A DNA stretch of 33,139 nt from a virus. A program made the position numbers and the translations under genes. This document shows positions 1 through 33,139 of this stretch, piece after piece (the stretch's first letter is position 1; the number at the start of each line of letters is the position of its first letter). The stretch is taken from IMG/VR virus record IMGVR_UViG_3300032117_000098, positions 1 to 33,139 of that record; one strand, 5' to 3'. The notes below the pieces were generated by a model, which worked only from the letters and a program-made list of their open reading frames with translations, searched no databases and had not been told where the DNA came from.

Positions 1-140
1 GTTTAGGTATTGGACCCAATGATGTTATTGTCAATACACCTGAGAATATTACTAAAACAGCTAATGCTATTACACAGTTCGAATCTGGTCACTATAAACC
101 TGGTCCAACAGGACCTGTAATGACCATTGGTTCCACTGTT
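1..140. repeat. Left copy of terminal redundancy (closes the circle)
   Basis: Bases 1-140 match 33000-33139 at every position except one: T at 127 against C at 33126. The reading frame of the large virion-protein gene continues exactly across the join, so this is the overlap of a circular or circularly permuted genome of about 32,999 bp. A P22-like terminase and portal fit headful packaging of permuted DNA. The mismatch changes Ile to Thr and may be a population variant or an assembly error. Confidence 0.93.
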
Positions 141-971
141 TCTGGTCCTAATACTCAAGAACCTATTGTTAAGGATGCTGAATTCTTTAAAAATCCCGAT
201 AATTGGGATCAATGGCGTCCAAAGGGTATTAAAGGCGTTCCTGCTGATACAGATAAGACTTATGCTGAACGTCAGAAGTTATTGGCACAATTACCAACCT
301 TGCAATCAAGTGCTGAAAAAATTGCTCGTTATGAAGAACCGGCACCAAGTATGGGACGTGGTAATCCAGCCAATGCTGCTATGATGGAAATGGTTCACAA
401 GATCAATCCAGACTTTAATGCAACTAACTATGAAATTGCTAAACGCACACGCCTAAGTTTTGCTACAGGTAAGGATGCTGATAAATTAGATTCGCATATG
501 ACAGTTATCAAACACGAAGATACATTGTTGAATTTGATTGATAATTTGAATAACACTCAGAGTCCACTGTTTAACAAATATGCTAATGAATGGAGTTATC
601 AAACTGGTAAAGCACCACCAGTGACATTTGATGCTGCTAAACAATTAGTTGGTGATGAAATTGCTAAGGCTGCTACTGGCGGCCGCAGTGCATTAGGTGA
701 TCGTGAAGAAATTAAAGCAGTATTAAATCGTGCTAATACTCCCGACCAGTTAAAGAGCGTAGTAGAAGCCTTACAAGAATTGCAAGGTGGACAATTAACT
801 ACATTACGAGATCGTTGGACTCGTGCAGGATTACCGGCAGATCAATTTAATGATTTCCTTGATGAACCTACCCGAGCAGCATTAGAACGTGCCGATCGAA
901 CAGCTAAACAAAACTTTCAACGACGCGGTCAAAAAACACAACAACATACGGAGAGTAACTGGAATGAGTAA
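1..971 (+). CDS. Large internal virion (ejection-type) protein, 3' part
   Basis: This is the C-terminal third of a gene that begins at 31154; read across the circular junction the whole protein is 938 residues. The frame here starts at base 3 (bases 1-2 finish a codon begun at the other end) and stops with TAA at 969-971. The segment has no signal peptide or membrane segment and is hydrophilic, with many helical stretches. Just before it, at the right end of the window, comes a stretch typical of large phage virion proteins (NNPGAIFGADG, then RFATPEEGRRAL) that resembles domains of virion-associated lysozyme-like proteins. The stop overlaps the next ATG (964) by 8 bases. Its position between an S74-tailed protein and a second ejection-like protein suggests a particle component delivered with the DNA. 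No catalytic motif can be confirmed. Confidence 0.75.
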   Translation, partial: LGIGPNDVIVNTPENITKTANAITQFESGHYKPGPTGPVMTIGSTVSGPNTQEPIVKDAEFFKNPDNWDQWRPKGIKGVPADTDKTYAERQKLLAQLPTLQSSAEKIARYEEPAPSMGRGNPANAAMMEMVHKINPDFNATNYEIAKRTRLSFATGKDADKLDSHMTVIKHEDTLLNLIDNLNNTQSPLFNKYANEWSYQTGKAPPVTFDAAKQLVGDEIAKAATGGRSALGDREEIKAVLNRANTPDQLKSVVEALQELQGGQLTTLRDRWTRAGLPADQFNDFLDEPTRAALERADRTAKQNFQRRGQKTQQHTESNWNE

Positions 972-2106
972 AAGTATAACAGTTGAATTTGCCGATGGCA
1001 CCAGCCATACTTATAATAACGTTCCTGATTCTGTGACACAGGAACAGGCTGAAGCAAAGGCTGCAAAACAATATAATAAAACTGTAGCAACACCTGCTGG
1101 TTTTACACAACGATCCAAAGAAATTGCAGGCACAGCAGCAACTAATGTTGGTGCTGGTGCTGCAATGTTAGGTCACGAAGTAGCAAATCATCCTGTTATA
1201 GCATCTGGTTTAGGTTATGGTGCATATAAACTGGCACAAAGAATTCCTGGTATTGGTCCTGCAGTTGGCAATTTAGGTGAAAAGGCTCTACAGACTTTTG
1301 TTCCAAAATATGATTTAGCTAAGAATTTAATGGGCAAGGCCGAAACTTGGGCACAAGGACAACAGGCCAATGCCGAAGCAACTACCAAAGCTGCAGAATT
1401 ACGTAATTTAGAATCCGAAAGATTACACGATCGAGAAATGGTTCGTCGCGGAGTTATGACTCCAGAAGAAATGCAACAGAGAGAAATTGGTAGAACTCGA
1501 ACTACTACAGCAGTAGAAACTGTGCCAAAGGCACCAGTGCCAAATTATTCTATTCAACAACCTGCTGCTACATATAACGTTCCTACTTCAACTATAACAG
1601 AAACAGCACCAGTTGAAGCAGCATCAGTTCAACCTGCAATGCCTGCAGAACCAGCACCAGTTCAACCTGCAATGCCTGCAGAACCAGCACTTAATTATGG
1701 ACAATTAGCACAACGTTATGGCCAACAATTTTTGCGTGCCTTACCAGCTTTAACAGCTGGATATGAAGGTGCGTTAGGCGTAAACCAAGCTGCACAAGGT
1801 AATATGGCCGGTGCTGCTGAACACGGTGTTAATGCAGCATTAGCAGCCGGAACATACTTGCCAGGTATGGCAGGAACTGCGGCCGGTGGATTAGGATTAG
1901 CTACATATGCTCCTACACTTAATACCGGCGAACAACAACAATTGAATCAAATGTATCCTGAACAAGCACAACAGGCTCGAATCAATCAACAGGCTATACA
2001 AGCTGCCGGTCGTCAACCAACTTCCGCTGCGGATTTAGATCAAATGATTCGTGCTGCTGCTGCAAGACAAGCATTGGTAAGTCCTGTCCTACAAGGTAAT
2101 CAATAA
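964..2106 (+). CDS. Putative internal virion/ejection protein, 380 aa
   Basis: The ATG at 964 is chosen because it sits in the usual overlap with the preceding stop; an upstream extension would only run back over the previous gene. Residues 1-40 (MSKSITVEFADGTSHTYNNV start) resemble the short beta-rich N-terminal motif seen on many phage ejection and internal virion proteins. Residues about 45-115 are rich in Ala and Gly with weakly hydrophobic helices, followed by a charged helical stretch. A Pro/Ala-rich linker then carries a near-perfect 11-residue duplication (PVQPAMPAEPA type), and a second Ala/Gly-rich amphipathic region lies near residues 255-330. Such membrane-active Ala/Gly segments fit a protein that crosses the cell envelope during DNA entry. 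The gene is coupled by TAATG to the Dps-like gene. The function is inferred from composition and position. Confidence 0.6.
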   Translation: MSKSITVEFADGTSHTYNNVPDSVTQEQAEAKAAKQYNKTVATPAGFTQRSKEIAGTAATNVGAGAAMLGHEVANHPVIASGLGYGAYKLAQRIPGIGPAVGNLGEKALQTFVPKYDLAKNLMGKAETWAQGQQANAEATTKAAELRNLESERLHDREMVRRGVMTPEEMQQREIGRTRTTTAVETVPKAPVPNYSIQQPAATYNVPTSTITETAPVEAASVQPAMPAEPAPVQPAMPAEPALNYGQLAQRYGQQFLRALPALTAGYEGALGVNQAAQGNMAGAAEHGVNAALAAGTYLPGMAGTAAGGLGLATYAPTLNTGEQQQLNQMYPEQAQQARINQQAIQAAGRQPTSAADLDQMIRAAAARQALVSPVLQGNQ

Positions 2107-2537
2107 TGGAAACTGAATTAAAATTAGTAGAAGTATTCTCTGACAACTTTGTCAATTACTATCGAGCACATTCTATACACTTTAATATTACCGGCGAAAA
2201 CTTTGCAGCCAATCATCGCTTATTGCAGAAAATCTATGAAGATGCACAACAGGCCATTGATGATTTAGGTGAATTGATTCGTGCCTTAGGTGCTTATGCT
2301 CCTGACAGCATACAGACCATTTTATCTCGTGCTGATCTATCTGATATGTCTGTAACCAGTGATTGGCGTGATCTTATACAGTTAGTTTTAGAAGGTCAAG
2401 ATCATATGATCAGAACCTATAGAGAATTAGATCACATATCCACACAAGAAGGTGAATCTGACATTGCTAACTATGCACAAGATCGCATACGTCAACACAA
2501 AAAGTTTGCTTGGCAATTAAGCAGCATATTAGAATGA
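2106..2537 (+). CDS. dps: Dps-like ferritin (DNA-protecting iron-storage protein)
   Basis: At 143 residues it is close to the usual Dps size. The ferroxidase signature is clear: H25 in AHSIHFNITG, H37 in AANHRLL, then D52 and E56 in AIDDLGELIRALG, aligning with the intersubunit iron ligands H31, H43, D58 and E62 of Listeria Dps. The acidic residue one helix turn after the second His (E47 in Listeria, D67 in E. coli) is Gln41 here, so iron affinity may be altered. Family knowledge: Dps forms hollow dodecamers that oxidise Fe(II) with peroxide, store iron and often bind DNA. The N-terminal tail is very short and has few Lys or Arg, so the DNA-binding tail of E. coli Dps is missing. Its start overlaps the stop of an ejection-like protein (TAATG) and its stop overlaps the next start (ATGA). 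It acts either in the infected cell or in the virion; the sequence does not say which. Confidence 0.88.
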   Translation: METELKLVEVFSDNFVNYYRAHSIHFNITGENFAANHRLLQKIYEDAQQAIDDLGELIRALGAYAPDSIQTILSRADLSDMSVTSDWRDLIQLVLEGQDHMIRTYRELDHISTQEGESDIANYAQDRIRQHKKFAWQLSSILE

Positions 2538-2809
2538 ACAGCGATATAATTGAACCTATCGTAGATGAAGAAAAGAATTTGGATCTGCACGTAAAATTAT
2601 GTGCAGCCAGATATCAACAGATCTGCAGTAAGTTTGATCGACTGGATGTTAGATTGGAAAAAATTGACTATAACTTAAAAGAAATATCTAAGTTAGTGGC
2701 CGATAACAAAAACAACTTAGAAACAAGATTCTTGGGTTGGGCTGTTAGTGTTATCGGTATATTAAGTGGTGTATTAGGTTATCTTATAACACATTACGTA
2801 TTACGATGA
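2534..2809 (+). CDS. Small coiled-coil protein with C-terminal membrane helix (holin-like)
   Basis: The start at 2534 forms an ATGA overlap with the Dps stop. The 91 residues fall into an acidic N-terminus, a heptad-like charged region at about 25-65 (RLDVRLEKIDYNLKEISKLV) and one hydrophobic helix at about 67-88 (WAVSVIGILSGVLGYLITHYV), ending in a single Arg. This layout of coiled coil then one C-terminal membrane span recalls XhlA-type and other small phage lysis or membrane proteins. No endolysin is recognisable nearby, so a holin role is only a guess; it could also be a structural membrane anchor. Confidence 0.65.
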   Translation: MNSDIIEPIVDEEKNLDLHVKLCAARYQQICSKFDRLDVRLEKIDYNLKEISKLVADNKNNLETRFLGWAVSVIGILSGVLGYLITHYVLR

Positions 2810-3391: not shown

Positions 3392-3559
3392 ATGAATATC
3401 AAACTGTCACTGTTCAATCGACATCAACAACATCCTGTCGCTGTGGTTATCCGAACTCGAGGTCCACACTACGCACACCTTAAATGTAGTAAATGCAATA
3501 CGTGGCTCAAGTGGTTATCTCGCACTGAAGCTGAACAGATACGTGAGATGACCCAATGA
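3392..3559 (+). CDS. Mini-protein with CxxC motif, 55 aa
   Basis: The ATG at 3392 follows an AAGGA sequence, and the TGA at 3557-3559 overlaps the next ATG (3556). The protein has a CxxC pair (C32-S-K-C35) within HYAHLKCSKCNTWLKWL. This resembles a short phage and cyanobacterial motif in which His, CxxC and a WLKWL-type tail probably form a half zinc ribbon. With only one CxxC it may bind zinc as a dimer or together with His26/His29. It is translationally coupled to the polymerase-like gene, so a DNA-binding accessory role is plausible but unproven. Confidence 0.65.
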   Translation: MNIKLSLFNRHQQHPVAVVIRTRGPHYAHLKCSKCNTWLKWLSRTEAEQIREMTQ

Positions 3560-4707
3560 CTTATCAACCCAACTTAAATGATCCACGAATACTCACACGC
3601 ATTCAGCGAGCACTGGGGTTTACTATAGGTGTTGTGTCAGAGACACGACCACATCAATGGAGCACGAGATATATCGATCGCCACTTCGGAAGTTCATCAC
3701 GTGACTTATCCCGGTGGTTGCGTAATATCTTATTGATTAATACTAATCGTCACTGGAATCGAGAAGCAGGTATTTGCAAGGAATATGTGAGAAATCCACA
3801 GGGTGTTGATTACTTGCGTGCTGTATTGAAAAATCACTACAGAGAATCATATGAAAAATATCAAGAGGAAATGAAACGGAGTGAGAGTGAACCAAAAGAC
3901 AACTACTCTACTATCTTACCCTATTGTAACGGTTCTCCTGTCAATCAACAGTGGGATTACCAATGTGTTAAAAAATGGGTGCTGCGTGAATATGATTCTG
4001 AGTTTGAATCTGGGTTCAACTATGAAGATAAAAGCAATCGACTATGGCATCCAATACAGAACATATCAAATCAATATCGACAGCAGATTATGAGTGAGCA
4101 GGGCTACCGACACAACTATGACATTGCCGCAGCAGCACCTACACTGATATTACGCGAAGCACAACGAATCAATGCTTATGGTGACTTAGACCTATGGCAG
4201 TGGGCAATCCAGGACTTGTTGGCCAATCGAGACTACCAACGCTACAGACTATCGCTATTAGCTGAATGTGATGTTAGAAAGATAAAAGTAATGATCAATG
4301 CACTATTCTGTGGTGCACGTTTAGGCTGTAATCCACAGTATGCGTTGAGTCAGCTGTTCAATAATGATCGGATTCGAATCAATCGACTGCGTAATGATTC
4401 CTGGCTCGGGCAGTTGATCAGTGAGATTAAAACATGTTGGCGTTCAATTGAAGTCACTATGGAACGACGTGAACATGCCGAAACTGGACGTAAATTACCA
4501 CTGTCAAGTCGTCAGAAGTGGGCCAGATATTTTGAATTAGAAAGACGTGTTCAAAACTCAATATGTCGGTATCTGGAAGAGAATAATAATGCTTACTTCT
4601 TAGAGCATGATGGATTCTGTTCGCGAGATCCAGTGAACTTGACGGAGTTAGATGACTACATTTATCAAGATACTGGCTATTGGATACATGTGGAATCGAA
4701 AAGATAA
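3556..4707 (+). CDS. Candidate palm-domain polymerase (superfamily A / TV-Pol-like), 383 aa
   Basis: Three spaced motifs look like a single-subunit polymerase palm. Motif A is NYDIAAAAPTLIL with D189. Motif B is the helix RKIKVMINALFCGARLG (K242/K244, N248, G253). Motif C is FLEHDGFCS with H351-D352. The HD in motif C is typical of superfamily A DNA polymerases and T7-type RNA polymerases, and the size and order fit the small TV-Pol family described in phages and mobile elements. Residues about 1-130 form an N-terminal region with a Trp/Arg/Asn-rich stretch. It could act in replication, priming or transcription, and it is the only replication-type gene I can find. The region is compositionally distinct: all four CATG sites of the window (near 4433, 4473, 4606 and 4687) are here, and a 26-bp direct repeat flanks 3938-4716. 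The family assignment rests on motifs read by eye. Confidence 0.55.
   Translation: MTYQPNLNDPRILTRIQRALGFTIGVVSETRPHQWSTRYIDRHFGSSSRDLSRWLRNILLINTNRHWNREAGICKEYVRNPQGVDYLRAVLKNHYRESYEKYQEEMKRSESEPKDNYSTILPYCNGSPVNQQWDYQCVKKWVLREYDSEFESGFNYEDKSNRLWHPIQNISNQYRQQIMSEQGYRHNYDIAAAAPTLILREAQRINAYGDLDLWQWAIQDLLANRDYQRYRLSLLAECDVRKIKVMINALFCGARLGCNPQYALSQLFNNDRIRINRLRNDSWLGQLISEIKTCWRSIEVTMERREHAETGRKLPLSSRQKWARYFELERRVQNSICRYLEENNNAYFLEHDGFCSRDPVNLTELDDYIYQDTGYWIHVESKR
3912..3937 (+). repeat. 26-bp direct repeat, copy 1 (inside polymerase-like gene)
   Basis: These 26 bases, encoding part of TILPYCNGS, are identical to 4717-4742. The copies are 805 bp apart and bracket the catalytic part of the polymerase-like gene. 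Joining copy 1 to the sequence after copy 2 keeps an open frame that ends at a TAG near 4770. Confidence 0.9.
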
Positions 4708-5210: not shown

Positions 5211-5556
5211 AGCAGGAAAAGAATATCCACATCTGTGGGTTTCAGGACCAGATCCTGAACAGCATCGCCAGTATTTGATCTGGCTACAACAGCGTAATCA
5301 AGCACAGTTTAGAGGAGAACCGTGGCAGTTGCCCTTTGAACTATGGCAGGAGCTTTGGCGTGATCGCTGGGCTGAACGTGGACGCCGCAGAGATCAATAC
5401 TGTATGAGTCGTCGCAATTGGCTTGAGGGTTGGACACCAGATAATATACAGATCATAACACGTGCCGAACACAGCCAACTACAGACATTAGCACGTAATC
5501 AAGGACATCGTAGTCCTGCACAACAACTACGCAGACAGCGTTTGGGATTGAAATGA
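5188..5556 (+). CDS. Degenerate HNH-like phage protein, 122 aa
   Basis: The start at 5188 has a CAGGAG site at 5172-5177; an earlier in-frame start would lie deep in the preceding gene. The N-terminal YPHLWVSGPDPEQHRQYLIW segment leads into a Trp-rich helical part (WQLPFELWQELWRDRW, residues 46-61). Then comes the core RGRRRDQYCMSRRNW with GWTPDNIQIITRAEH (residues 64-95). That order of basic loop, CMSR, W-x-x-x-N-I-x-I and final His resembles HNH-like proteins that are frequent in T4-like and other marine phages. The canonical HNH catalytic His pair is not evident, so nuclease activity is doubtful. The stop overlaps the next ATG (5553). It could bind DNA or be a decayed homing-type nuclease. 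Confidence 0.55.
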   Translation: MSTRGPGKAGKEYPHLWVSGPDPEQHRQYLIWLQQRNQAQFRGEPWQLPFELWQELWRDRWAERGRRRDQYCMSRRNWLEGWTPDNIQIITRAEHSQLQTLARNQGHRSPAQQLRRQRLGLK

Positions 5557-6161
5557 AAACATTAGAAGGCACAAGAACCATTATTGATCTGGAACGCTAT
5601 GCACATACTGCTGGGGATTCCTGGCGTTGGCGTGCAGCTCAAGGCCCCGATGTTGAAGAAATAGTGGATCTGGCCACTGTGCATTTTAGAACAGAAACCG
5701 AAGGTATATTTGATAACAATCCTGTTGAATACAGTCGTAATGTGACCTTGGCTATTGTAACACAGTTCTTTAATCCCAAAATGGAATTGTTCAGTGTGGC
5801 AAGAGAACAGGCGACCAATAGATTGTTGGCCTATACCTGGGCACGACGTGGCGAACACGTGCCTTGGAGCACAGAAGAAGTTGTGGCTGTGCGTATGGCA
5901 CACATAGATCACGCGATCTCAGCAAGATCACGTGTGTTCTTAGCAGCACAGATGATTAGACTATGGGAAGTCTGGGCTCGTGCCTGTGATGTTGCCATAA
6001 TCTCCAGCTCTACTATTAGATCAGATCAAACTGCATTTTTAGATCTACATCGTGCAGCAGGTTATTCAGTGCGTGGCAGCGTAGCATATAAACGCTTAGG
6101 CACACTACGCTTTGCAGTTGATGAACCGGCCGCGTCAGCGGTTTTTATGAAAACCCCCTAA
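5553..6161 (+). CDS. GNAT-like N-acetyltransferase, 202 aa
   Basis: Residues about 25-165 follow the GNAT plan. First comes RAAQGPDVEEIVDLATVHF, the usual beta1-alpha1 entry. A strand with LFSVAREQATNRLLAYTWARRGE follows. The region around VAVRMAHIDHAISARSRVFLAAQMIRLW resembles the acetyl-CoA binding turn and helix, though the classical Q/R-x-x-G-x-G/A is not intact. Then come AIISSSTIRSDQTAFLDLHRAAGYSVRGSVAYKRL, the late strands with the GY motif that ends most GNAT domains. Proteins of this shape are common orphans in cyanophages; their substrate is unknown. The gene is coupled by ATGA to the preceding HNH-like gene. The weak CoA loop lowers confidence in activity. Confidence 0.65.
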   Translation: MKTLEGTRTIIDLERYAHTAGDSWRWRAAQGPDVEEIVDLATVHFRTETEGIFDNNPVEYSRNVTLAIVTQFFNPKMELFSVAREQATNRLLAYTWARRGEHVPWSTEEVVAVRMAHIDHAISARSRVFLAAQMIRLWEVWARACDVAIISSSTIRSDQTAFLDLHRAAGYSVRGSVAYKRLGTLRFAVDEPAASAVFMKTP

Positions 6162-8687: not shown

Positions 8688-8720
8688 TGCAGGGGCAGTC
8701 AGTCAGTCCTGTCCCCTGCA
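8688..8720 (+). other. Intergenic hairpin with GTCA tandem in loop
   Basis: An 8-bp stem TGCAGGGG (8688-8695) / CCCCTGCA (8713-8720) encloses a 17-nt loop containing GTCAGTCAGTC. There is no T tract, so it is not a standard terminator. It lies 22 bp before the ATG at 8743 and could act as an mRNA processing, stability or translational element. Confidence 0.6.
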
Positions 8721-8742
8721 GTAGTATAGAAAAGGAATAGAA

Positions 8743-9525
8743 ATGAAAAAAGAAACAACATCAAACAATCCCTGGACAGAAGATGTCTCTGCAGTCGAAC
8801 CAGACTCTGTTACAGTGGCAAAAAAATCTGTAGCGAAACTTCAACCTCACGTGGAAACAGTTCAATTTGACATTGAAGGTCTGATGACAGACTTTCCCAC
8901 TGCCAAAGAATTAGAACGTTTTGTCTATGATGAAACAGGTATAGTATTGAATCTAAAAGGTCGTGCTAATCGTTTGAAATATCAAGTGGCTATGGATGTG
9001 TTAAATGGTCTGGATATAGATCCCAAGTTCTTAGGTTCAGAAAACCCTTATGTAGATCGCACAGAAATGATTCCACAAGAGGATCTTAAACCTGTGCCTG
9101 CAAGAGATCCTGGATTGCCCAGTATGGATCAATTACAGAACTCATTCTACAGTCCTTTTATTCCGCATCCCAATGATGACTTCCGTGCTCAAGATAAAAA
9201 AGTTGGCTGTATCTTCCGCAAGTATAAGAATGGTATGGTCAGTTATGAAGTGATAGGACCCCTGGACACTGTGCCTGTAGGTGAAAAGATCGACAAGTAT
9301 GGTAGAACACGTCCTGAATATATCAAGTGGATAGATCCACGCACAGGCGAACAGATAATGGTTCGACGTGATGGCACACTGACTCCAATGGGTCGTAATC
9401 TGCGTGGCATAATGCAGAAGTTTCGTGTGAATAACAGTTCAGCTTGGGAAGTTTGGATTGATCGTGAATTCGCAGAAATTGAAGGCGGCAGCTTAAAGAA
9501 TCCTTGGGATGTAGATCCAGAATGA
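8743..9525 (+). CDS. Unknown protein upstream of the packaging genes, 260 aa
   Basis: The start at 8743 follows AAAGGAA. The N-terminal 40 residues are polar. A compact helical segment (FPTAKELERFVYDETGIVLN, then KGRANRLKYQVAMDVLNG) spans about residues 51-90. After it comes a Pro-rich linker (MIPQEDLKPVPARDPGLPSM). The C-terminal half alternates strands and turns around GRTRPEYIKWIDPRTGEQ and MVRRDGTLTPMGRNLRG. I have seen this pattern in uncultured aquatic phages but know no function. It is coupled by ATGA to the superoxide dismutase gene, and its place before the terminase suggests a packaging or head role. Confidence 0.55.
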   Translation: MKKETTSNNPWTEDVSAVEPDSVTVAKKSVAKLQPHVETVQFDIEGLMTDFPTAKELERFVYDETGIVLNLKGRANRLKYQVAMDVLNGLDIDPKFLGSENPYVDRTEMIPQEDLKPVPARDPGLPSMDQLQNSFYSPFIPHPNDDFRAQDKKVGCIFRKYKNGMVSYEVIGPLDTVPVGEKIDKYGRTRPEYIKWIDPRTGEQIMVRRDGTLTPMGRNLRGIMQKFRVNNSSAWEVWIDREFAEIEGGSLKNPWDVDPE

Positions 9526-10055
9526 AGTTTCCCAAATCAACCAATCGAAAATTAGAACAGATTCGTTTACCATATGCATTAGATGCTTTAGAACCTGTGT
9601 TAAGCAAAGAAAATATGATCTATCATTTCCAACACTTGTATGGTGGTTATGTAGATCGTTTTAATAAAAATGAAGGCGATCGTAGCTTCAATGAAGCAGG
9701 TGCTTTCCTACACGCTATCTATTACAGTCAATTTACACCGCCTGCCGCTAATACTACACAGCCCGGACCGGTGTTTAAGGCCTTAATAGAACCTTATCGT
9801 CGATTATCTGTGTTAAAAGAAGAAATGTTAGAAGAAGCTATAAAGATAGAAGGATCAGGTTGGATTTATCTGAGTCGAACAGGTCAAATCAAAACTATAC
9901 ATAATCACGAGATTCGCGATGACATAGTGCTTTTAATTGACTGGTGGGAACACGCTTGGAATCCAGATTATCAATGGCGTAAAAAAGAATATTTTGATCG
10001 CATTTGGTCACTAATGGATTGGGATCATATTGATGCTCGATTGGCTACTTTATGA
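9522..10055 (+). CDS. Fe/Mn-type superoxide dismutase homologue, 177 aa
   Basis: The start at 9522 overlaps the preceding stop (ATGA). The chain follows the FeSOD/MnSOD fold order: LPYALDALEPVLSKENMIYH (residues 16-35), FNEAGAFLHAIYYSQFTPP, EGSGWIYLSRTG, then LLIDWWEHAW and YFDRIWSLMDWDHI. All four metal ligands are present: H35, H64, D140 and H144, equivalent to H26, H73, D156 and H160 of E. coli FeSOD. Tyr43 (Y34) and Trp114 (W122) are also kept. FeSOD His30 is Leu39, and the FeSOD Gln69 position is Gly60, as in Mn enzymes. At 177 residues it is a little shorter than the usual 190-210. The reaction would be dismutation of superoxide to oxygen and peroxide, in the cytoplasm since no signal peptide is seen. 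Altered outer-sphere residues leave activity and metal preference uncertain. Confidence 0.87.
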   Translation: MKFPKSTNRKLEQIRLPYALDALEPVLSKENMIYHFQHLYGGYVDRFNKNEGDRSFNEAGAFLHAIYYSQFTPPAANTTQPGPVFKALIEPYRRLSVLKEEMLEEAIKIEGSGWIYLSRTGQIKTIHNHEIRDDIVLLIDWWEHAWNPDYQWRKKEYFDRIWSLMDWDHIDARLATL

Positions 10056-27928: not shown

Positions 27929-29134
27929 ATGCGATATAAACATATTGAATCTATGCTACCCTTAAAGGCCTTTATAGGTCGTCCAGGTCTTCCTCTTAAA
28001 GTTTGGGGAGATGGTGGTGATGGCGGTGATGGTGATGGTGGTGATGGTGATGGTGGTGGTGGTGGAGTTACCACTCCTATAGCAGCTACAGATACCGCTG
28101 CACCTGGTCCTGTAGCTCCATCTGGTCCTTTATTTGCACCTGTGCCTGCTGTTTATATTCCTGGTATCAATCCCGGTTTTATTGCACCAGGTGCAGCATT
28201 TGCCACAACAGGTCCAGGTCAAAATTATTATGCCTGGGGTATGCAGGGATCCGGCCAACAATATGGTCCTACAAATCCAGTAGGCACAGTAAACGGAACT
28301 GGTTTAATAACTCCATCACAATTAAATACCCCTTATCAATTTGAACAATATGCTCAAGGACACATTCCTATTACTACCGGTCCCGTTGTTCCGGTTCCAG
28401 GATATGATGTTTATACTAATAATGTGCCATTACTACCGGCAGCACCAGCCATTCCTGGAAATCCTGGTGTATTTGCCCCTGGTGGTGCAGCCCAACAATT
28501 TGGTGCAACATTAAATGAAGTTGCAAAACCACCTGTTGTAACTCCGGGAGCGGCATTATCAGTCCCTGGATATACTACCTATACATCTGCCGCTGCTGCT
28601 GCTGCAGCCGCTGCTGCCGCTGCAGGTAAAAGCCCTGCACAACAAGCTGCCGCTGCTGCCGCTGCTGCTCATCAAGCAGCTATTGCTTATCAAGCAGGTG
28701 CAGGTGGTGGCGATGGTGGTGGTGCAGCAGATAGTCCTGGACCTGGAAGTGATGGTCCAAGTTCTGGTCCTGGTGGTAGTTCAGGAACAGCAGAAGGCAC
28801 TACAGCTTCTTCCGAAGCTACAGGACCATCCGATACAACCAGTGATACATCCGATACAACCAGTGCTACATCTGATACAACCAGTGCTACATCTGATACA
28901 ACCAGTGCTACATCTGATACAACCAGTGATACTGGAACAGCAGCTGACAGTCCTGGTCCTTCTGATACAGCATCAAGTGATACTGGAACAGCAGCTGATA
29001 GTGCTGCTGCTGCTGATAGTGCTGCTGCTGCTGATAGTGCTGCTGCTGCTGATAGTGCTGCTGCTGATGGCGGTGGTGGTGATGGTGATGGCGGTGGTGG
29101 TGATGGCGGTGGTGGTGGTGGTGATGGCGGTTAA
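27929..29134 (+). CDS. Low-complexity Gly/Ala/Ser-Asp-Thr-rich protein, 401 aa
   Basis: After a short N-terminus (MRYKHIESMLPLKAFIGRPG) the chain contains a Gly/Asp run, a Pro/Gly/Val-rich central part (PGPVAPSGPLFAPVPAVYIP), poly-Ala segments, then Ser/Asp/Thr repeats (SDTTSAT) and AAAADS repeats, ending in Gly/Asp. Such compositions suggest a disordered or elastic virion protein or a surface fibre. The ML-P-KAF start resembles those of small structural proteins in aquatic phages. The ribosome-binding sequence is AGAAAGAA. Slippage-prone DNA repeats make the length uncertain between relatives, and the short-read assembly may be unreliable here. Confidence 0.6.
   Translation: MRYKHIESMLPLKAFIGRPGLPLKVWGDGGDGGDGDGGDGDGGGGGVTTPIAATDTAAPGPVAPSGPLFAPVPAVYIPGINPGFIAPGAAFATTGPGQNYYAWGMQGSGQQYGPTNPVGTVNGTGLITPSQLNTPYQFEQYAQGHIPITTGPVVPVPGYDVYTNNVPLLPAAPAIPGNPGVFAPGGAAQQFGATLNEVAKPPVVTPGAALSVPGYTTYTSAAAAAAAAAAAAGKSPAQQAAAAAAAAHQAAIAYQAGAGGGDGGGAADSPGPGSDGPSSGPGGSSGTAEGTTASSEATGPSDTTSDTSDTTSATSDTTSATSDTTSATSDTTSDTGTAADSPGPSDTASSDTGTAADSAAAADSAAAADSAAAADSAAADGGGGDGDGGGGDGGGGGGDGG
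28829..28930 (+). repeat. 21-bp tandem repeat, about 5 units (SDTTSAT)
   Basis: Five in-frame units of the form TCYGATACAACCAGTGMTACA are head to tail (28829, 28850, 28871, 28892, 28913). The last is truncated to 18 bases. Confidence 0.92.
29000..29065 (+). repeat. 18-bp tandem repeat, 3.5 units (SAAAAD)
   Basis: Three full units AGTGCTGCTGCTGCTGAT start at 29000, 29018 and 29036, followed by a partial copy at 29054. It is in frame within the low-complexity gene. Confidence 0.9.
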
Positions 29135-30190: not shown

Positions 30191-31150
30191 ATGAGTTTAG
30201 GAAAATCGAGCGGAACGAGCACAACGATCCCTACCTTGTCACCAGAACAAAACGCACAAATTGCGGCACAGACAGCATTATTTACTGGCACGGTAGCTCC
30301 GAACTTCCAAGCTGCAACACAAGGTGCTACAAACTTATACAATGCGGCAGCACCTGGTGTGACCAATGCAGCACAGAATTTAGCAGGCACAGCTAATCAA
30401 GCTCAAACTGTTCTCGGTTCTACAGGTCAAAGTGCATTAGATACAGGTGTCAATGCATTACAAAACTTAGATAGTCCTGCTTATCAACAGGCCGAATTAA
30501 ATGCAGCATTACAGCCTGGTGAAGCACAATATGCACAGAACATTGCTAATCAAACAGCACAGTTTGGTGGTGCAGGTGAATTAGGCAGTGAGCGTAGTGC
30601 TATTGCACAGGCTCAAACAGCAGGTTCAACACAGGCAGCACAACAACAGGCTGCGGCCACTGTGTTGAATAACATTGCACAACAACAACAGGCAGCAGGA
30701 ACTAATCTTGCACAAATAGGTCAAACAGGTTTAGCCGGAGCACAAACTTCTGCACAAAATCAGATTTCTGCTGCAATGGCACCACAGGCCTTGTATAATC
30801 AATATGCCAGTGTGTTGTTTGGAACACCCAGTGCCAGTTATAATCCTAATTTTTCTGGAACACAATCTACTACAACCAATACCAGTGGTTCTAATGCTGG
30901 ATTTGCTTTACCAACTATTAATATATCGGATTGTCGTGCTAAAGAAAATATACGCTATGTTGGTAAAGAAAACGGACATAAAATCTATCATTTTAATTAT
31001 CTTGGTGATCGACGTCGTTATTCCGGTGTTATGGCACAAGAAGTTCAACAATATTGTCCAGAAGCTATACATATTACTCCAGATGGTTATCTATCTGTCG
31101 ATTATGATATGCTTGGTATCAGTATGAAAGAAGTGGAAACTAAGGAATAA
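30191..31150 (+). CDS. Ala/Gln-rich internal virion protein with S74-like C-terminus, 319 aa
   Basis: Residues 1-220 are rich in Ala, Gln, Asn and Gly with long predicted helices (NAAQNLAGTANQAQTVLG, QQAAATVLNNIAQQQQAAG), typical of DNA-ejection or needle proteins. The C-terminal 75 residues hold a chaperone-type S74-like module: SDCRAKENIRYVGKENGHKI, YHFNYLGDRRRYSGVMAQEV, then GYLSVDYDML. In tail spikes this domain drives trimer folding and is then cleaved before a conserved Ser; here the start SD-x-R-x-K-E-N-I is kept, with Ser at the junction. Its context before the 938-residue virion protein suggests an ejection complex. A ribosome-binding GGAGAAAG precedes the ATG. Confidence 0.7.
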   Translation: MSLGKSSGTSTTIPTLSPEQNAQIAAQTALFTGTVAPNFQAATQGATNLYNAAAPGVTNAAQNLAGTANQAQTVLGSTGQSALDTGVNALQNLDSPAYQQAELNAALQPGEAQYAQNIANQTAQFGGAGELGSERSAIAQAQTAGSTQAAQQQAAATVLNNIAQQQQAAGTNLAQIGQTGLAGAQTSAQNQISAAMAPQALYNQYASVLFGTPSASYNPNFSGTQSTTTNTSGSNAGFALPTINISDCRAKENIRYVGKENGHKIYHFNYLGDRRRYSGVMAQEVQQYCPEAIHITPDGYLSVDYDMLGISMKEVETKE

Positions 31151-31153
31151 CCA

Positions 31154-33139
31154 ATGGCTGATGAATTAGATTTTATGCCTGGATCAAGCGAATATCAGGT
31201 GCCCACTCCGGATTTTAGTCAAATATTATCCAGTGCTCAAAGTTATTTGGCTAATAATTTTAGTTTAGGTAATCGTGCAAGTTCTGCTACACAACCAATT
31301 AGTATTCCTGCTGCTACGCAAAATGCCTATCAATATCAACCAGAAACTGCTGCTCCTATCAATTTAGCCAATAGCACACAGTTGATGAATCAACAGCCTA
31401 ATCCTGCTGTTTATACAGCACCTCCGGTCAATTATGCACCTGTAAATCAACCATTTGGTCCAACTACCAGTAATGTGGTAAATCCACAGGCCTTAACTCC
31501 AGCTTGGACCAATCCTGTGAATCCATTTGGTCCAACTACCAGTAATGTGGTAAATCCTGCTGCGGTGAATCCTGCTGCGGTGAATCCTGCTGCGGTGAAT
31601 CCTGCTGCGGTGAATCCTACTCAGGTAGGAACCGCTGCACCTGTTCCTGTTCCTGCTGCACCTGCTGCGATTCCTCCAGCTGTGCCAATAACGCCTACTG
31701 CTACAATTCCTACTGTTACAGCATTTACACCTCCAACAGTAAATCAACCAATTGCTGCAACACCTTTACCGACTAATGTTACTACAACACCAGATGGAAC
31801 ACCATTAAACGCTCCAGTAAATGTTAATAGTCCATCTGCACAACAGCAAAGATTGATAGAAGCCAGTAATGAACGTGATGCCAATCGTCGTCACGAATTG
31901 ATGACTAAAATTATTTCAGATCCTAATACTTCGAAAGAAAATAAAGATTTGGCTATGAAGTTGGCAGCCGAAGCTAATGAACGTGATTTGCAAGCACAGA
32001 AAGCCAGTCAAGAATTAAAAAAGGCTACACCTAATGATTTAGTTCGTGCAATGAGATCTAATTCCGATGAAGGTAGCTATATTAAATTGGCCTTATTCCA
32101 CGCATTGGGATGGAATCAATTGGCACAACAGGAACAGATCAAATTAGGACATAATCTTGTTCGCCAAGGTGCAGAAGATCGTCAAGGAAACGGCTATACA
32201 GTAGAACGTAATCCAGTTACAGGTGATATTTCTCGTGTTTGGGATCAAAAGGGTGTAGAACAAGGACCAGATAAAATTGCTGAACTTATGGCCACTGGTA
32301 TGAAACCTGGAACAAAAACTACCAGTCAAGAAGGCACTATTCTTACATCACCTTCAACCGGTCGTCAATTCATTCTACAAAGATCTAATGTTCCTAACGA
32401 ACCACCTAAGTTCGTTCCAGTTGGTGGTGGTGCTCCTATCTCTGCTGCCGAACAAGCTGAACTTGGTAAGTTAGGTGCTATGCAAGAACAGGAAAAACGT
32501 AATCAAGCTCTTGCTGATACAACATTCAAACAAGAATATGAAAGATTGTCACAACAAAATCAAAAAGACAGTCAAATTCCTGGCAAACCTTTAATGAGCA
32601 CGGCTGAAATGATTCAACGTGCAGAACAGGCCAGACAGGCTATTCTAAATCTGCATCCTGTTAGTCACGCTGCTGGTGTTGCAGAAAGTCGTGCCAATCC
32701 TAATGAAGTATTGGCAGCAAGACAAGCTGGTCAAAGTTTAACTGAATATTATAACAATCCAGGTGCTATTTTTGGTGCAGATGGTCGAATTCGTAGATTT
32801 GCTACTCCTGAAGAAGGACGTCGTGCATTGGAAAATGATCTGTCATTAAAAATAGGTGGTCAAAGTGCTGCATTTGCTAACAAATGGGGATCAGGAACTC
32901 CAGTGACTCCTTATCGTTTAGCAGAAACTTGGGCTCCTGCAAATGCAGTTGGTAATACTCCAGAAGGCACTAAAAATTATGGAGAATTTATTGCTAAAAG
33001 TTTAGGTATTGGACCCAATGATGTTATTGTCAATACACCTGAGAATATTACTAAAACAGCTAATGCTATTACACAGTTCGAATCTGGTCACTATAAACCT
33101 GGTCCAACAGGACCTGTAATGACCACTGGTTCCACTGTT
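31154..33139 (+). CDS. Large internal virion (ejection-type) protein, 5' part
   Basis: The ATG at 31154 lies 3 bases after the S74-type gene and opens a frame with no stop to the window end, continuing at base 1-971 across the circular junction (938 residues in all). Domain order: a short N-terminus; a Pro/Ala/Asn/Thr-rich linker at about 60-220 with (VNPAA)4 and a VNPFGPTTSNVVNP duplication; charged helices (NERDANRRHELMTKIISDPN); and a region with NNPGAIFGADGRIRRFATPE and WAPANAVGNTPEGTKNYGEF. The last resembles a module common in phage virion-associated lysozyme-like and internal proteins. The remaining helical part is in the left end of the window. It may form the inner core or transit the envelope. 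Enzymatic activity is not proven. Confidence 0.75.
   Translation, partial: MADELDFMPGSSEYQVPTPDFSQILSSAQSYLANNFSLGNRASSATQPISIPAATQNAYQYQPETAAPINLANSTQLMNQQPNPAVYTAPPVNYAPVNQPFGPTTSNVVNPQALTPAWTNPVNPFGPTTSNVVNPAAVNPAAVNPAAVNPAAVNPTQVGTAAPVPVPAAPAAIPPAVPITPTATIPTVTAFTPPTVNQPIAATPLPTNVTTTPDGTPLNAPVNVNSPSAQQQRLIEASNERDANRRHELMTKIISDPNTSKENKDLAMKLAAEANERDLQAQKASQELKKATPNDLVRAMRSNSDEGSYIKLALFHALGWNQLAQQEQIKLGHNLVRQGAEDRQGNGYTVERNPVTGDISRVWDQKGVEQGPDKIAELMATGMKPGTKTTSQEGTILTSPSTGRQFILQRSNVPNEPPKFVPVGGGAPISAAEQAELGKLGAMQEQEKRNQALADTTFKQEYERLSQQNQKDSQIPGKPLMSTAEMIQRAEQARQAILNLHPVSHAAGVAESRANPNEVLAARQAGQSLTEYYNNPGAIFGADGRIRRFATPEEGRRALENDLSLKIGGQSAAFANKWGSGTPVTPYRLAETWAPANAVGNTPEGTKNYGEFIAKSLGIGPNDVIVNTPENITKTANAITQFESGHYKPGPTGPVMTTGSTV
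31553..31612 (+). repeat. 15-bp tandem repeat, 4 units (VNPAA)
   Basis: Four perfect units AATCCTGCTGCGGTG occur in frame in the linker of the large virion protein. Confidence 0.93.
33000..33139. repeat. Right copy of terminal redundancy
   Basis: This is identical to bases 1-140 except C at 33126 in place of T at 127. The first 126 bases of the overlap are perfect and 13 more match after the mismatch. Confidence 0.93.

Follow-up and report, generated by a model that had tools for sequence, protein, structure and literature searches.

Gene order at the dps locus

The 33,139-nucleotide stretch of DNA analysed here (the window) is the whole of IMG/VR virus record IMGVR_UViG_3300032117_000098, and its phage nature is attested by an SU10-type portal, a major capsid protein and a terminase large subunit (TerL) encoded in the same record. 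The record ends (1-140 and 33000-33139) repeat each other over 140 bp with 99.3% identity (one mismatch), so the record probably represents a complete genome of about 33 kb, either circular or circularly permuted, even if IMG/VR may class it as linear. On its plus strand lies a cassette of genes that begins with a DNA-ejection/S74-like protein (30191..31150), whose counterpart in the related locus L012 matches phrog_4287 (DNA ejection protein) and Peptidase_S74; the L003 protein gave no family match in Pfam or PHROG. The second gene, up2, encodes a large internal virion-type protein and is split over the record ends because the record is circularly permuted: the N-terminal part is encoded at 31154..33139, in a frame that is open to the record end and yields the same peptide as the record start, and the C-terminal part at 3..971. 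Relatives of up2 match SLT transglycosylase or internal virion protein, with an SLT domain found in two of the four counterparts tested (L005 and L096) and the L012 protein matching profiles described as 'released from the phage upon host infection' and transglycosylase; the L010 copy had no match in the same profile searches.

The third gene, up1 (964..2106, plus strand; ATG at 964, alternative GTG at 889), encodes an Ala/Pro-rich protein. Family searches returned no match for it, nor for nearly all of the 71 up1 proteins scanned, and we therefore call it ejection-type by its position and by the N-terminal modules it shares with its relatives. The up1 proteins are highly variable (mean column identity 8%), complete ORFs mostly measuring approximately 200-920 aa. 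The up1 of L096 (4006-6600, 864 aa) bears an AAA/clamp-loader-like ATPase domain after an ejection-type N-terminus, which suggests that up1 can carry variable C-terminal domains.

The TAA of up1 shares one base (position 2106) with the ATG of the gene at the centre of this study, dps (2106..2537, plus strand), which encodes a mini-ferritin of 143 aa; the overlap with an ejection-type gene had been pointed out in the initial annotation. The dps stop codon in turn overlaps (ATGA) the start of a gene for a small coiled-coil protein that has a single hydrophobic segment in its C-terminal part (2534..2809, plus strand), for which Pfam and PHROG gave no confident match and whose homologue in L012 is located elsewhere.

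Two further genes were noticed in the neighbourhood. The 383-aa protein encoded at 3556-4707, related to that at 8702-9949 on the minus strand of L012, belongs to a type of 383-415 aa with the conserved stretches YDIxAAxPTLI, KV..L..GA and HDG, which we take to be reminiscent of the A, B and C motifs found in family-A-like polymerases; the window copy has no confident Pfam or PHROG match, its structure model reached a pLDDT of 46.8, and a scan for further relatives found none. The other is a conserved gene, presumably acetyltransferase-like, found at 5553-6161 of the window and on the minus strand of L003 (6495-7022), L009 (4390-4878) and L010 (5086-5607). Its usual place is after dps and in the opposite orientation; in the window it shares the strand of dps and is found 3 kb downstream of it. 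Pfam and PHROG gave no match for the L009 copy.

Identity and conservation of the Dps protein

The protein encoded at 2106-2537 matches the Pfam family Ferritin (PF00210; E 5.4e-16, 59.2 bits against a cut-off of 24.5) and phrog_3636 (E 1.1e-23), and its top match among PDB sequences is Pseudomonas aeruginosa Dps (PA0962; 8ff9_A, E 7e-17). There are 37 distinct PDB sequence matches at E <=0.01, five of which are synthetic coiled coils that match the last helix only, the remainder being Dps or ferritin-like proteins. AlphaFold2, run on a 12-row alignment (A2), gave five monomer models with mean pLDDT from 53.3 to 91.6, only the best of them being confident. In this monomer model, helices at residues 2-27, 33-60, 69-75, 87-114 and 118-142 make up a ferritin-like four-helix bundle with a short BC-loop helix. 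Comparison with VIA-align gave Z 22.8 and rmsd 1.3 over 143 residues for MrgA, and the P. aeruginosa protein (PDB 8ff9) is nearly as close (Z 22.0, rmsd 1.4 over 143 residues). The 50 structure matches listed (Z 20.8-22.8) belong to the ferritin superfamily, mostly as Dps, Dpr, Dlp or NAP, and among them is the Dps of A. tumefaciens, by its title of a type in which DNA is protected though not bound. A chance ORF and a wrong family assignment are ruled out by these Pfam, PHROG, PDB sequence and structure matches. The initial annotation would have given way to the lack of a four-helix bundle or to a better match with another family; the predicted fold and its matches are those of Dps.

The alignment of the window protein with P. 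aeruginosa Dps is free of gaps from residue 9 to 142 and pairs H25, H37, D52 and E56 with H37, H49, D64 and E68, i.e. with the two His, one Asp and one Glu that constitute the inter-subunit ferroxidase ligands, at the spacing typical of Dps. In iron-soaked crystals of P. aeruginosa Dps these four residues are the protein ligands of iron, and the residue matching Gln41 of the window protein is not among them, as far as the available part of that report goes (PMC10002758). The two proteins also have in common the absence of a long basic tail, but they differ in overall sequence (26% identity), in the Trp beside the first ligand and the Glu at the Gln41 site of the P. aeruginosa protein, and in the location of its gene on a host chromosome.

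Relatives were gathered by IMG/VR scans, which provided 11 close loci with 54-62% identity. Wider sets came from a terminase search, of whose 334 hits the best 80 were used, and from two divergent Dps alignments, each likewise represented by its best 80 hits (of 194 and 130, respectively). We kept 134 distinct Dps proteins from uncultured phages, leaving out exact duplicates, minus-strand hits and the loci L013-L017, L107 and L135-L144 (named phages, MW202484 and plasmids). Their length is constant (143-145 aa), and H25, H37, D52 and E56 are invariant in all 134. Only 17 of the 143 columns are invariant, and the chance that four given columns would all be among them is 1.4e-4. Position 41 is variable (Q 82, G 30, E 16, K 4, N 1, A 1), and the P. 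aeruginosa ligand set together with this variation rules out Gln41 as a crippling change. The initial annotation was thus correct in recognizing that the phage encodes a Dps whose ferroxidase signature is intact, in the positions of the four ligands and in placing Gln41 where an acidic partner was expected, but its worry about the latter residue proved unfounded.

The dN/dS ratio has a median of 0.091 and a maximum of 0.187 across 133 close pairs, which overlap and are not independent. Since the exact ligand set is kept in sequences whose identity to the window Dps goes down to about 36-44%, its strict conservation argues for a working, if putative, ferroxidase centre. The same observation weighs against the idea that a catalytically dead Dps fold has been reused as a structural part of the virion; although the position among virion-type genes and the loss of the conserved Trp (position 26 is V in 93 relatives, A in 19, F in eight, L in seven and I in seven, and Trp in 0 of 134) would fit such a role, we regard it as very improbable. 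Given the lost Trp, radical trapping may differ from that in P. aeruginosa Dps. We conclude that 2106-2537 encodes an authentic Dps-type mini-ferritin, with iron-oxidising activity predicted from its sequence.

The window Dps is acidic (computed pI 4.84, net charge -10.9 at pH 7), and inspection of its sequence revealed no basic N- or C-terminal tail, in agreement with the initial annotation. The same applies to the relatives: pI ranges from 4.08 to 4.92 (median 4.43; 4.84-5.71 in nine plasmid Dps), the first 12 residues contain zero to two K/R in 134/134 proteins, and the basic tails that mark the DNA-binding subset of Dps are absent from all of them. It seems improbable, then, that this Dps binds or cleaves DNA, compacting that of the phage or cutting that of the host, even though the closest solved relative, P. 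aeruginosa Dps, likewise on the acidic side in its fold class, cleaves DNA in vitro according to the available part of its description (PMC10002758).

Position of dps across the phage group

We applied a permissive rule to the upstream ORF (at least 60 aa, with an ATG or open at the locus end, and ending within 150 nt). An ORF of this kind ends no more than 150 nt from the dps ATG in 126 of the 134 loci, at -4 to +10 nt in 121 of them and at 18-50 nt in the other five (the 50-nt gap being that of L077). Among the remaining eight, dps lies within 190 nt of the locus start in five, and one or two small basic ORFs separate up1 from dps in L222, L262 and L171. On inspection, the upstream ORF is mostly one modular ejection-type gene; in L191 it is an HNH endonuclease. 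The inspected neighbourhoods show a recurrent order of DNA-ejection/S74-like protein, large internal protein, up1 and Dps, i.e. dps is encoded in the ejection-protein cassette, with up1 assigned by position.

Among the terminase-selected loci (best 80 of 334, TerL identity 76-100%), dps was present in 22 of 80, most of the others being short; it was found in 20/24 of those with at least 5 kb upstream of TerL and in 17/17 of those with at least 8 kb. Whole records gave a similar picture, with dps in 26 of the 28 searched, six of which had been picked for having Dps, and in 20 of the 22 derived from the terminase search. The two records lacking dps (G006 and G016) are fragments in which 4.3 and 7.5 kb precede TerL and, as the Dps-TerL distance ranges from 3.0 to 8.4 kb, the dps site may simply be missing from them. 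In the outgroup phage MW202484 (TerL 50% identical), the only Dps-like protein has 118 aa and is encoded far from the virion genes.

No relative emerged when bacterial genome contigs were scanned with the close alignment A1, and the plasmid Dps found are 24-32% identical to the window Dps. The phylogeny against bacterial Dps that the initial annotation had called for separates nine bacterial and four named-phage rows from the relatives by a long branch (1.58, support 90/98), in a tree where long branches meet, the relatives' clade is itself not starred and phage S-EIVl falls on the clade's side with weak support. A stray host gene is thus disfavoured, and the fixed position and the 17/17 presence indicate, at the level of sequence, that in a large group of uncultured phages dps belongs to the core genes, presumably as a late one.

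The same position raises the question of whether Dps is packaged together with the ejection proteins, as the initial annotation had also considered. A short-tailed phage clade might build a working mini-ferritin into the virion beside these proteins, for genome protection outside the cell, handling of Fe(II)/H2O2 at entry, or both. Dps that stays in the head would keep iron off the packaged DNA, and Dps delivered to the cell would blunt Fe(II)/H2O2 at entry; the 9-nm Dps shell is too wide for the tail channel, and delivery would therefore have to proceed as subunits. The fixed place behind ejection-type genes while up1 is otherwise exchangeable favours such cargo; the free exchange of up1 may also be held against it. 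In phage SU10 a similar late block encodes gp20-24, which the available text of PMC9509320 describes as virion proteins that are ejected. Conversely, the available text of PMC4281155 presents SU10 gp67, which is a Dps, as a middle gene product detected by mass spectrometry only in a PEG preparation, possibly along with non-virion proteins. Dps-like domains occur inside proteins of 290-763 aa in eight of the 18 significant BFVD matches, three of them labelled prohead protease, which speaks for a virion link; a fusion of Dps with up1 or prohead protease was sought in the related loci examined and none was found, which speaks against it. The eight long BFVD proteins, with labels as in BFVD, are possible Dps-capsid protein fusions in other uncultured phages.

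The neighbouring internal proteins carry a recurrent motif, GP[VI][AVS]P, that could be a docking or processing site. It is present in 59/123 up1 and 30/106 up2 proteins, and its absence from all 133 Dps proteins compared is a further point against packaging. Hits number 71 in the 123 up1 (shuffled mean 0.76), 40 in the 106 up2 (1.02) and six in 498 downstream proteins (0.92); in the window, the motif occurs in the protein encoded at 27929-29134, and the window's own up1 and up2 are without it. Our literature searches found no virion proteomics for this phage group. On balance, we consider a virion-borne Dps a tentative and rather unlikely reading.

Putative role and significance

Our preferred reading, to which we assign a probability of roughly 60%, is an iron-oxidising, H2O2-preferring dodecamer that stores iron late in infection and protects without coating DNA, with the cytosol of the infected cell slightly favoured over the virion as its place of action. 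It builds on the fold of the monomer model, the ligand invariance, the purifying selection, the acidity and the operon position, and from these we infer the dodecamer, its activity, timing and location. The Dps subunits would assemble into a dodecamer in which, at each dimer interface, two irons would be bound by H25 and H37 from one subunit together with D52 and E56 from the other. Fe(II) would be oxidised there, preferably with H2O2, and ferric iron would be stored in the cavity. Phage DNA and particle assembly would be protected from Fenton chemistry by the removal of Fe(II) and peroxide, the DNA itself remaining uncoated because the protein is acidic and has no basic tails. The suggestion of the initial annotation that Dps shields DNA from Fenton chemistry accordingly loses its DNA-binding variant and stays plausible as removal of Fe(II)/H2O2. 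Judging from the position and the gene overlap, dps would be a late-expressed, translationally coupled cistron that closes the ejection-protein operon; a search for a promoter-like site on the plus strand between 1500 and 3040 found none, which lends weak support to the late timing.

Dps proteins are already known from phages. SU10 gp67 and the Dps of the C3 podophages 7-11, GAP52 and A24 come, as here, from phages with an SU10-type capsid and have the Dps fold, but they form a separate long-branched group in the tree with weak similarity to the window Dps, and their genes are middle genes surrounded by nucleotide-metabolism genes. The Synechococcus phages S-EIVl and S-SRM01 encode stand-alone Dps like that of the window (matches with more than 80% coverage), but with 23-28% identity and in a different setting, with sulfate adenylyltransferase adjacent or a porin gene nearby. 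In all named phages inspected, dps stands beside nucleotide-metabolism or other non-virion genes. The Dps of Lactobacillus phages and of Gratiaviridae gut phages have been proposed to help against oxidative stress; in the available parts of these sources they differ in being accessory genes, with no ejection operon reported there (PMC6669764, PMC8008677). The literature searches made revealed no Dps fixed as a core gene at the end of an ejection-type cassette, nor any report that places the protein in virions or its gene in an ejection operon.

Phage Dps is usually read as an optional stress gene, and in this large uncultured group it looks like core equipment. If the protein is packaged, phage particles would be tied to iron chemistry, and the group would allow a concrete test of the way in which virions carry iron or deal with it. 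If it acts in the cytosol, control of iron late in infection would be important enough for the gene to be retained throughout the phage group.
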